Shown: positions 18,585-22,516 of the stretch, one piece after another
How positions within the stretch are numbered: the stretch's first letter is position 1
How the letters are laid out: each line of letters begins with the position of its first letter
NCBI GenBank assembly: GCA_030550675.1
Contig: JAUQOW010000011.1
Span: forward strand, 1 to 38,253
DNA from: Chloroflexota bacterium
GTDB taxonomy: Bacteria > Chloroflexota > Chloroflexia > Chloroflexales > Roseiflexaceae
DNA: 38,253 bases
Direction of reading: 5' to 3'
Program-made: the position numbers and the translations under genes
The notes under the pieces: generated by a model
Database searches by the model: none
Told to the model about the DNA's origin: nothing
What the model saw: the letters and a program-made list of their open reading frames with translations, nothing else

Positions 18585-20150
18585 TCAATCCGCAGGCTCC
18601 GCCGCCAGAACGCGGTAGTTCAGAAAAGGAAAGGGATTATCAATCTCCTCAATAGCGGCAAGCGTCATCTGATCCGCATCATCGAGCGAGTCGCGCGCTG
18701 CCAGCGCACACATCCGCTGGCAGCGCTCCAGGTGATCCCACGGACGGTGCGCTTCACCGGCATCGTCCCGGCTGAGCAGCAATAGCCAGTCGCTCGACTG
18801 CGCCAGCAACAATTCGCGCACTGCCTGGTTGAGCGCGCGTTCTCTGTCCCCGTGCGCGTCTGGAAAGCGTTGCGCCATTTCGACAACCAGATCCTCGGCT
18901 TCGCTGACAGCCCGACGGAGCGGCGCGCCTGCCAGCGAGTTCCAGGCGGAATGATCGCCTCCCGGACCCCATGACCCATCCCGCAACGTTACGGTCTGAC
19001 GGGGTCGGAAGGCGCGCAGATACGCCGAAGGCGTCGTCAGGGCAAACGGTCGGTGGATCAGAACAGTCTCCAGCAGCGCGCGCAGCCATGCGACGCCTTC
19101 AAACCAGCGCCGTCCCAGAACATCTGCATCAAGCGGAACCACGATCATCCCCGGACGATCATGACGATCGGCGAATGCGCGCAATTCACTCGTCGTCCAC
19201 TCCGCAAAATGAACGGCATGTTCCTGGGCGCGACGAAATGCGTGATACGGGTCGTATGGTTCAACCTGCGCGTCATTCTCGCCATTGCGCCAGATTGGAA
19301 GGTGAGAGACGCGATCCCGGCGGATCGCCAGATAGAGCGGATCACCAACGTAGCCGATGCCCGGCGACACGATCTGAAGCGACGCATCGACGGCGCGTAT
19401 CATCGCGATTAACCGGCGCGGCGTCACCCAGCGGGGGCGCAGGTGGGTCACATACGCGTCGGAGGCGACGCTCGCCGGATCAATGATGAAATAGCGCGTC
19501 CCATTCAGACGCAGCGCCTGCTCCAATCCGGCGCGAAAACCGCACTCCGGCAGCCAGATGCCGCGCGGTCGGCGACCAAGCAGGCGCGTGACCGTGAGAG
19601 TTCCCGCATCGAGTTGCGCGCGCACCGATTCCTGGCGCGCCAGAAGAGGCAGGTAGGCATGCGTCGCTGCGCCTCCCAGCGGTTCAACTGTTCCAACTGC
19701 GCACAACTCACGCATGGCTGCAACCAGATTACGTCCGTAGCGTTCGGTGAAACTGCGCAGAATACCCTGCCCCCAGTCGAGGTAGAAGCGCGCCAGATAT
19801 GCATGATGCCGCTGCCGTTGACGTTGCCAGCGGCGCAGCGCCGCTTCGCAGCGCGCCAGCCAGCGCTCCATCCAGACAATGAAATGCTTCTGAACCACAA
19901 TATCCGCCAGTTGCTCGAGCAAAATCGGCGAGTATGCCAGCGACACATATGGGCGCATGCCGCGTTCGTGCAGATCGTACAGCACGTTCAACACAGGGAT
20001 AATCGAAAATGCGATCATTTCGTGCAGCGGGTCTTCACCGTCGGGACGCCGACCGGCGGCGCGCAGATACGGCATATGCCCGGCGAGCACGAGCGCAAGA
20101 CCGCCCGCCATCGACCGGATCATCGCCCCGTTTGTGTGTCCGTTGTTCAC
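18585..20150 (-). CDS. Glycoside hydrolase family 57 protein (branching-enzyme type)
   Basis: A 521-residue GH57 enzyme. The family motifs are visible: LAGHMPYLR near the N-terminus (motif 1), WLPEC with the nucleophile glutamate near 200 (motif 3), VPLDADVLGRRWFEG near 339 with the acid aspartate (motif 4), and a helical C-terminal domain with DGSWGPGGDHSAWNS (motif 5 region). The family includes alpha-1,4-glucan branching enzymes and amylases; motif 5 and length favour branching enzyme, acting on glycogen-like glucan. The start is GTG and overlaps the preceding stop as GTGA, so its translation is coupled to the phosphotransferase-like gene. Confidence 0.88.
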   Translation of the reverse strand: MNNGHTNGAMIRSMAGGLALVLAGHMPYLRAAGRRPDGEDPLHEMIAFSIIPVLNVLYDLHERGMRPYVSLAYSPILLEQLADIVVQKHFIVWMERWLARCEAALRRWQRQRQRHHAYLARFYLDWGQGILRSFTERYGRNLVAAMRELCAVGTVEPLGGAATHAYLPLLARQESVRAQLDAGTLTVTRLLGRRPRGIWLPECGFRAGLEQALRLNGTRYFIIDPASVASDAYVTHLRPRWVTPRRLIAMIRAVDASLQIVSPGIGYVGDPLYLAIRRDRVSHLPIWRNGENDAQVEPYDPYHAFRRAQEHAVHFAEWTTSELRAFADRHDRPGMIVVPLDADVLGRRWFEGVAWLRALLETVLIHRPFALTTPSAYLRAFRPRQTVTLRDGSWGPGGDHSAWNSLAGAPLRRAVSEAEDLVVEMAQRFPDAHGDRERALNQAVRELLLAQSSDWLLLLSRDDAGEAHRPWDHLERCQRMCALAARDSLDDADQMTLAAIEEIDNPFPFLNYRVLAAEPAD

Positions 20151-21109
20151 TGCAATCCCTCCAATCGCGCCATCACCGCCGCCGGCAGACCCGAAAGCAC
20201 CGCCGAATCGCGCATCTCAAACGCATGAACGACATCGATCAGCAGACGCAGCCGATTCACGCGCGCATAGTGTTCGGCGGTCAACGCTCCTCCCATTTCG
20301 TACCCTTCCAGCACACTGTGGCGAAAGACTGGCGGATGGCGCGATGATAGCGCATATGCAAGATCAAACGCAGGATCGCCGCCAACTGGCGCCTCTGGCT
20401 GTATCAGACCTTCGAGTTGCACCGATTCGCCCACGGTAACCACCGCACGCGCCGGTTCGATCGCGCCATGCAGTACGCAAGGCTGATCGCAGGCAAGCGC
20501 CGGATGTTCGAGCGTCGCCGCACGGAGGGCTGCTGCAAGGTCTGAACCCAGCACCGCTTCCGCCTGGACGTTGAAATTCCGTTGCTCAAGCCAGCGCATC
20601 AGCGCCTCGCGCCACGTTCGCGCCGACCAGCGACCAGCCGGGGTTGGCGCGCCAAAGCCCGGCGCCTCGATCCGATGGATTCGCCGGAGCACACGCCCGA
20701 TCCGCCTGCCCGCCACGCGCGCGAGCGCCGGGTCATCGAGCGCGGCAAGCGTCAGACTGCCAGGATATGTTTCTAGCGCATATGTAAACGGAACATTGGT
20801 GCAGCTTAAGTCATACGTAATCAGACGCGGCGCTGGCAGATCGTGCGCCGCGAGCATGCGCAGGAAGAAGACCTCGTGCGCCAGGTCCGAATCGGGCGCA
20901 ATGACGAGCGCCACATGGCTGGTTGCAGTGGTGATGCGCACTTCGATGCGCCGATTCGTCGCACAAACGAGGGTTGCGCACCTCGGACGCGCCTTGAGCG
21001 GTTCGACAATCGCTGCCGCATAATCGCCAAGGCGCGCCAGAATGCGCCGCAACGCTTCCGAAAAAGCAGGATCGTCTGGATGGAGGTCCTGGTTCAGATG
21101 CGCCCACAC
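20147..21109 (-). CDS. Phosphotransferase-fold protein without catalytic residues
   Basis: This 320-residue protein has the APH/choline-kinase layout: an N-lobe with HVALVIAPDSDLAHEVFFLR, a hinge region, a helical C-lobe with RIGRVLRRIHRIEAPGFGAP, and the end motif GGDPAFDLAYAL. The catalytic loop expected as HGDLHPGNV reads HGAIEPARA near residue 212. The metal-binding motif expected as IDWE reads IQPE near 233. Both essential aspartates and the asparagine are therefore gone, so it is probably a pseudokinase that binds a ligand or partner. The GTG start has no clear Shine-Dalgarno site. It follows the amidohydrolase by 24 bases and overlaps the GH57 start. Confidence 0.7.
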   Translation of the reverse strand: MWAHLNQDLHPDDPAFSEALRRILARLGDYAAAIVEPLKARPRCATLVCATNRRIEVRITTATSHVALVIAPDSDLAHEVFFLRMLAAHDLPAPRLITYDLSCTNVPFTYALETYPGSLTLAALDDPALARVAGRRIGRVLRRIHRIEAPGFGAPTPAGRWSARTWREALMRWLEQRNFNVQAEAVLGSDLAAALRAATLEHPALACDQPCVLHGAIEPARAVVTVGESVQLEGLIQPEAPVGGDPAFDLAYALSSRHPPVFRHSVLEGYEMGGALTAEHYARVNRLRLLIDVVHAFEMRDSAVLSGLPAAVMARLEGLQ

Positions 21110-21133: not shown

Positions 21134-22000
21134 CTATCGTGCAACTGGGGACAGACGATAGACGCGGCGGGCATTCTCAGACCAGAGTTTTCGCTGCGCT
21201 TCCGGCGACAGATCCGCTGTCAGCGTCGCCAGCGTTTCGACCCAGCGCCGATAACTGGTCGCCAGCAGCGCCACGGGCCAGTCGCCGCCGAACATCACGC
21301 GGTCCTCGCCGAACACCTCGAGTGCGTGCCGGATATACGGCGCCAGATCATCAACCGTCCAGCGCGTATGATCCGCCTCGGTCGCCACGCCGCTGATCTT
21401 GCACACGACATTCGGCAAACGAGCAAGCGTCGCAATGTGTTCGCGCCACGGGTCAAAGATGCCGTTGCGAATATCAGGCTTGGCAATGTGATCAAGAATG
21501 AACGTGACGCCAGGACACTGGCGCACCAATTCGATGACGGCTGGCAGTTGATAGTGATAGATGCAGATATCGAACGACAACCCGTACTCCGCCAGCAATT
21601 CCACGCCGCGAATAAACGACGGTCGGAGACAGTACGCCGGGTCCGGCTCGCCCTGGAGAATGCGCCGCACGCCTTTGACAATCGGACCGACGGCAACCAG
21701 CGCGTCAAGGATTGATCGCACACACTCGCCATCTTCCAGCGGCGCCCATGCCACGATCCCTTGAAGACGGGGGTCGTGCGCAGCCAGTCGCGCGATGTGC
21801 TGCGCTTCGAGCAACGCATAAGCAGGCGCGACGTCCACCTGCACATAGACCATCGCAGCAATATTTAAACCGGCGGTGTGCTCACAGAACGTCTGCACAT
21901 CATAGGCGCGATTAAGCAGATCATTGCCATCGAGCCAGGGAATGCGAAAACGCGCTGGATCCCACACATGAAGATGAGCATCAACGATTTCGTAGTCCAT
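21134..22000 (-). CDS. Amidohydrolase of the COG3618 (lactonase-like) family
   Basis: A 288-residue TIM-barrel metal hydrolase. It begins with the metal motif DAHLHVWDP, has HIAKPD near the middle and ends with the catalytic aspartate region MFGGDWPVALL. Relatives open sugar lactones (L-fucono- and L-rhamnono-lactone) or decarboxylate and hydrolyse ring compounds. I chose ATG 22000; an in-frame TTG at 22006 adds two residues. It sits 9 bases after the membrane-protein gene and 24 before the phosphotransferase-like gene, within one minus-strand operon. A sugar-lactone substrate is plausible next to a GH57 gene but unproven. Confidence 0.85.
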   Translation of the reverse strand: MDYEIVDAHLHVWDPARFRIPWLDGNDLLNRAYDVQTFCEHTAGLNIAAMVYVQVDVAPAYALLEAQHIARLAAHDPRLQGIVAWAPLEDGECVRSILDALVAVGPIVKGVRRILQGEPDPAYCLRPSFIRGVELLAEYGLSFDICIYHYQLPAVIELVRQCPGVTFILDHIAKPDIRNGIFDPWREHIATLARLPNVVCKISGVATEADHTRWTVDDLAPYIRHALEVFGEDRVMFGGDWPVALLATSYRRWVETLATLTADLSPEAQRKLWSENARRVYRLSPVAR

Positions 22001-22009
22001 GCGCAATCA

Positions 22010-22516
22010 TCACAGATGGCGTCGCTCCCACAACGGTTTCGGCGCCCCAATGCCAAAGGCTTTCCAAGCGGTCAGCAGATAGATCACCGTCACGACTTCA
22101 AGGATCAGAATACCCCACACTGACCACACAAATCCAGTCTCCACCCACGGATGAACGGCGACTGGAAGCCCTCGCACCAGCAGCCCGACGATTGAACCGC
22201 GCCACATCAGCGCCGCGCCTAAACCAGCCGCAGCCAGCGGACCTCCAATCACGTGCGACCACCATGCGCTCTGCAGCACCTCCCACAATCCCCAAAAAAA
22301 CCAGACAACCGTGAACGGCACAACGATGGCGAATGCGATCTCAACTGCCTGCATTGCCAGCGAGACCCCCAGCGCCGCTTTGTATGCGATCAGCGCCGCA
22401 GCGAGCAGCGCCAGAATAATACCACAAAGAACGCCAGCGCTGGCAAAAACCGCCAGAACAATCGGACGGGACGCGCGTGTTGATGATCCGACAACGCGGA
22501 CGCCAGTTCTGCTCAT
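22010..22516 (-). CDS. Four-helix membrane protein, unknown
   Basis: A 168-residue protein with about four hydrophobic segments (residues 20-48, 53-78, 90-115, 128-150) and a short basic C-terminus (KPLWERRHL). No family motif is recognised. It is the first gene of the operon leading to the amidohydrolase, phosphotransferase-like protein and GH57 enzyme. A promoter with consensus hexamers lies upstream (22600-22630). Confidence 0.7.
   Translation of the reverse strand: MSRTGVRVVGSSTRASRPIVLAVFASAGVLCGIILALLAAALIAYKAALGVSLAMQAVEIAFAIVVPFTVVWFFWGLWEVLQSAWWSHVIGGPLAAAGLGAALMWRGSIVGLLVRGLPVAVHPWVETGFVWSVWGILILEVVTVIYLLTAWKAFGIGAPKPLWERRHL

Follow-up and report, generated by a model that had tools for sequence, protein, structure and literature searches.

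Upstream of a gene for a GH57 glucan branching-enzyme-like protein, a Roseiflexus genome (contig C345) encodes an APH-type phosphotransferase fold whose catalytic loop and metal motif are degenerate. What does such a protein do, and does it act through the enzyme encoded next to it? We analyzed a window of 38,253 nucleotides containing this locus (Table 1). The original prediction, made from the sequence of the window, was that the intact frame overlaps the GH57 start, that the gene is kept and that its product may serve the GH57 enzyme as a scaffold or glucan-sensing subunit. Indeed, the open reading frame runs uninterrupted on the minus strand from a GTG start at 21109 to a TGA stop at 20147, and this stop and the GH57 GTG start share 4 nt (GTGA). 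The gene lies downstream of genes for an amidohydrolase and a small protein, and Pfam searches identified GH57 and branching-enzyme C-terminal domains in the downstream neighbor and Amidohydro_2 in the upstream one. Promoter and terminator scans gave no signal above shuffles.

Table 1. Features of the pseudokinase locus, in window coordinates
Feature	Coordinates	Strand	Basis
APH-fold pseudokinase, 320 aa, GTG start	20147..21109	-	ORF, Pfam, AlphaFold, orthologs
Degenerate catalytic loop HGAIEPARA, residues 214-222 (catalytic Asp = A216, catalytic Asn = R221)	20444..20470	-	alignment
Degenerate metal motif IQPE, residues 236-239 (metal Asp = Q237)	20393..20404	-	alignment
GH57 glucan branching-enzyme-like protein with BE_C domain	18585..20150	-	Pfam
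Amidohydro_2 (PF04909) hydrolase; nearest curated model L-fuconolactonase, well below cut-off	21134..22006	-	profile matches
Small protein, 168 aa, probably membrane-embedded, no family match; heads apparent operon	22010..22516	-	

Fold and active site

Residues 58 to 279 of the protein matched Pfam APH (PF01636) with an E-value of 9.7e-13 and a score of 48.9 bits, above the cut-off of 23.2, and 23 of 26 orthologs matched the same family. An AlphaFold model computed with the 26 orthologs as input had a pLDDT of 94.5 and a pTM of 0.90. Foldseek aligned this model to APH-type kinases with an E-value of 2e-9, and VIA-align gave Z scores of 20.4 to PsiK and 20.1 to APH(4)-Ia across 278 to 285 residues. 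The protein thus has the two-lobed APH fold, with a high-confidence model and Z scores of about 20. Its assignment as aminoglycoside/maltokinase-type holds for the shared fold and has no further support for maltokinase: there was no match to any NCBIfam maltokinase model, and we dropped that identity. Fructosamine kinase (FN3K) was likewise dropped, as PF03881 was matched by only 1 of 26 members, with an E-value of 0.0076.

To place the catalytic residues, we aligned a profile of the 26 orthologs to APH(7'')-Ia, its top sequence match among solved structures (E-value 1.7e-4). The family is in register with the HGDLHGTN and VDF motifs of this enzyme, which places HGAIEPARA (residues 214 to 222) at the catalytic loop and LIQPE (residues 235 to 239) at the metal region. 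Thus A216 replaces the catalytic Asp of an active APH kinase, R221 its catalytic Asn and Q237 its metal Asp, in agreement with the predicted loss of both aspartates and the asparagine. The β3 Lys/Arg position is also lost (V69), and the αC Glu is kept (E79).

The losses extend well beyond this genome. In a survey of 52 aligned orthologs, the catalytic Asn at position 221 was kept in none, the catalytic Asp at position 216 in 10 (gone in 42) and the metal Asp at position 237 in 11 (gone in 41); Lys or Arg at position 69 was present in 32 and E79 in 23. No ortholog has all five canonical residues, and a single one, G069, has four (Arg, Glu, Asp and metal Asp). The ten that retain the Asp of HGD include all seven aligned members of genus g8. 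Decay unique to this genome was dropped as an explanation, since orthologs show the same losses; retention of HGD among orthologs had been named in advance as an outcome that would overturn the pseudokinase reading, which stands. On the tree, parsimony required minima of 3 changes at D216, 6 at D237, 5 at E79 and 2 at R69, indicating that catalytic erosion happened repeatedly.

Conservation is concentrated elsewhere in the protein. The conservation percentiles of positions 216, 221 and 237 are 49, 81 and 75, in the middle of the ranking or its variable half, and the top 8% most conserved positions include H145, H214, G215, G244, D245 and D249. The fold-stabilizing residues H145 and D249 fall within the top 6%, and R135, R139, R142, W161 and W166 are also among the most conserved positions.

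Distribution and gene neighbors

Profile searches found the pseudokinase, as a single-copy gene, in 59 of 67 genomes of Roseiflexaceae (f1) and of family f4, which we take to be Chloroflexaceae. True orthologs had E-values below 1e-35 and mostly below 1e-90; the other two families of the order and the rest of the class yielded no ortholog, only weak paralogues (1e-8 to 2e-14), and a search of 400 genomes of the phylum gave only three matches outside the two families (1e-10 to 1e-13). The two families are mostly photosynthetic Chloroflexales, and the set of genomes with reaction-centre genes (PF00124) is almost identical to the set with the pseudokinase. We dropped a link to phototrophy, because G006 has the pseudokinase without PF00124 and G029 has PF00124 without the pseudokinase; these exceptions suggest that shared ancestry explains the overlap.

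The genes around the pseudokinase change from lineage to lineage, and the sole constant is the pseudokinase itself. The usual order in Chloroflexaceae is two TIGR03663 membrane proteins (glycosyltransferase-like), then the pseudokinase, then 6-phosphogluconolactonase (pgl), which lies directly downstream in 29 of the 39 pseudokinase-bearing genomes of that family, sometimes with overlapping stop and start codons. In four Roseiflexaceae genera the amidohydrolase lies directly upstream. The recurrence of lactonase neighbors raises the possibility that the protein supports a sugar-lactone step non-catalytically, as regulator or partner, acting with 6-phosphogluconolactonase in Chloroflexaceae and with the lactonase-like amidohydrolase in part of Roseiflexaceae. 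Consistent with this, glucose-6-phosphate dehydrogenase is present in all six Roseiflexus genomes (G000-G005), and none of the six matched either 6-phosphogluconolactonase family searched, pgl (TIGR01198) or the YbhE-type lactonase (PF10282). However, pgl is located elsewhere in G047, G080 and G081, and in genus g8 the pseudokinase adjoins cysteine synthase and neither lactonase. In addition, the amidohydrolase scores far under the fuconolactonase cut-off, which leaves a lactone as no more than a candidate substrate, and it is deleted in two Roseiflexus genomes that retain the pseudokinase (G001 and G004, both drafts, in which assembly error is possible though the junctions are clean). We therefore regard a dedicated role at the lactone step as unlikely; with low confidence, a lactone or pentose-phosphate link is the best concrete guess that the neighbors offer.

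Several observations concern these neighbors and their pathway in their own right. The amidohydrolase (21134-22006) is a candidate 6-phosphogluconolactone hydrolase in Roseiflexus; as a replacement 6-phosphogluconolactonase it was dropped, given the YbhE-type lactonase of several related genera and the lack of an intact amidohydrolase gene in G001 and G004. The C-terminal domain of 6-phosphogluconate dehydrogenase was matched over ∼117 of 290 positions in the f1 and f4 genomes with a match, which probably carry a short-type enzyme; the match in G055 spans only 29 positions and that in G042 is full length. An obligate partnership with the TIGR03663 pair was rejected: TIGR03663 matches occur in 82 of 82 genomes of the order, including those free of the pseudokinase, and in Roseiflexaceae these genes are located elsewhere, not beside it. 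In the Chloroflexus-type genome G045, one TIGR03663 membrane protein is fused to an NHL-repeat β-propeller and lies beside a second TIGR03663 protein (L042:4834-8316).

Binding, catalysis or partnership with GH57

The pattern used to define APH/choline-kinase-type pseudokinases was that described for the bacterial spore kinases (BSKs) (PMC2860764), namely catalytic residues lost, the fold-stabilizing His/Asp pair kept and the gene under selection. The family shows all three features. Ortholog frames are open, without internal stops, and dN/dS was 0.06 to 0.31 in 11 ortholog pairs, which shows purifying selection. Because the orthologs share the pattern of losses under such selection, the losses do not reflect chance or recent decay. 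With the fold confirmed and the catalytic losses family-wide, the pseudokinase reading was upheld, as was the expectation that the gene is kept.

We consider it probable that the protein is a conserved, lineage-specific pseudokinase of the APH fold (choline/aminoglycoside kinase-like), most likely a non-catalytic metabolite-binding or adaptor protein. As judged from the sequences, it would lack phosphotransfer activity, and the retention of the fold but not of the catalytic residues suggests that it works by binding. A small-molecule kinase ancestor may have lost its phosphotransfer machinery during the history that Roseiflexaceae and Chloroflexaceae share, the folded protein being retained after catalysis was gone. 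Selection would then act on the C-lobe core and on the acceptor-side segment from αE to the GRW motif (R135, R139, R142, H145, R160, W161 and W166), and not on the ATP/metal center. This segment is the natural candidate binding site, with a sugar phosphate, a lactone or a protein as a possible ligand.

Alternatively, the protein might still be an enzyme, either a kinase or another nucleotide-dependent transferase with a rearranged active site. Kinase-fold enzymes that lack some of the canonical residues exist, and H214, G215 and E233 are conserved here. Moreover, ten orthologs retain the catalytic Asp and G069 has four of the canonical residues, so some members could have weak or altered activity. 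Against this, none of the positions that contact nucleotide or metal in the canonical center is invariant: variation is seen at the β3 Lys/Arg, the αC Glu, the Asp and Asn of the catalytic loop and the metal Asp. We judge continued catalysis improbable, with compensation by substitute residues assessed from the alignment and not from geometry.

That the protein is a scaffold or glucan-sensing subunit of the GH57 branching enzyme, as was proposed for this locus, is very unlikely. The stop/start overlap in Roseiflexus suggests translational coupling, and five of the six genomes of the genus have the same arrangement. However, the adjacency is limited to Roseiflexus. Elsewhere in Roseiflexaceae and throughout Chloroflexaceae, GH57 is remote or on another contig. 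It has a contig of its own apart from the pseudokinase in genus g5 of Roseiflexaceae, and complete genomes of the Chloroflexus type place at least hundreds of kilobases between the two genes (in G045, GH57 is at 3.40 Mb and the pseudokinase at 0.06 Mb). The two genes also occur separately, with a GH57 relative and no pseudokinase in thirteen genomes of families f2 and f3 and a pseudokinase and no GH57 match in ten (G043, G051 and eight genomes of genus g8). In G004, residues 84 to 405 of GH57 are deleted (∼1.0 kb), leaving a deletion remnant, and ∼0.65 kb of the amidohydrolase is also gone, with clean junctions at L032:5835-5845 and L032:7199-7201; the pseudokinase in between is intact and 82% identical. 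G001 likewise lacks the amidohydrolase and retains the pseudokinase; both are draft genomes, in which such gaps could be assembly errors. The pseudokinase is not an obligate GH57 subunit, and its position next to GH57 is an accident of one genus. Finally, a decaying pseudogene or neutral relic, which the drift of the catalytic residues might have indicated, is exceedingly improbable and already contradicted by the selection data; the gene is also found in nearly all complete genomes of two families, its ortholog frames are open, and it persists where both neighbors are deleted.

Returning to the binding-protein reading, a more specific form of it is that the pseudokinase takes part without catalysis, as sensor or partner, in the sugar-phosphate or lactone metabolism or the envelope glycosylation of Roseiflexaceae and Chloroflexaceae, within an apparently undescribed family whose members grade from HGD-retaining to fully degenerate. 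We put this forward tentatively, as possible but on the whole doubtful. A literature search found no paper on the protein, and the family seems not to have been named before; other APH-fold pseudokinases are already known. Bacterial APH-fold pseudokinases have been little studied, and this one occurs across its two families roughly as widely as the photosynthetic reaction center. Being single-copy and widespread, with intermediate stages of catalytic loss preserved, the family offers a way to study the roles of a kinase fold that no longer catalyzes. The GH57 neighbor, specific to one genus, also illustrates the risk of inferring function from a single operon.

Relation to known kinases and pseudokinases

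Among active kinases, APH(4)-Ia and APH(7'')-Ia have the same fold as the pseudokinase (Z of 20.1 and 17.2) at 12 to 17% identity, but retain the catalytic Asp, Asn and metal Asp where the pseudokinase has A216, R221 and Q237. Maltokinase (Mak) of the GlgE pathway is an APH-like kinase encoded beside glucan branching-enzyme genes in other bacteria (PMC2885305). Unlike Mak, the pseudokinase matches no maltokinase model, lacks the catalytic residues and has no conserved GH57 neighbor. LxmK of the lexapeptide dehydratase complex (9dk3) is an APH-like fold in complex with a partner protein, with a Z of 18.3 to the pseudokinase; its partner and active-site context differ, and no lyase partner gene was seen beside members of the pseudokinase family.

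The BSKs (YtaA/CotI, CotS, YutH and YsxE) are APH-type pseudokinases already known, in which the fold-stabilizing His and Asp are kept while catalytic residues go (PMC2860764). Like the Chloroflexales family, they have an APH/choline-kinase-like fold in which the catalytic Asp and other motifs were lost repeatedly and independently, and in both groups some members are linked to glycosyltransferase genes. The retained His/Asp pair is H158/D220 in PKA numbering for the BSKs and H145/D249 in the Chloroflexales protein. The BSKs belong to spore-forming Firmicutes and are associated with the spore coat, an association that does not extend to the Chloroflexales family; the likeness described here is one of pattern.
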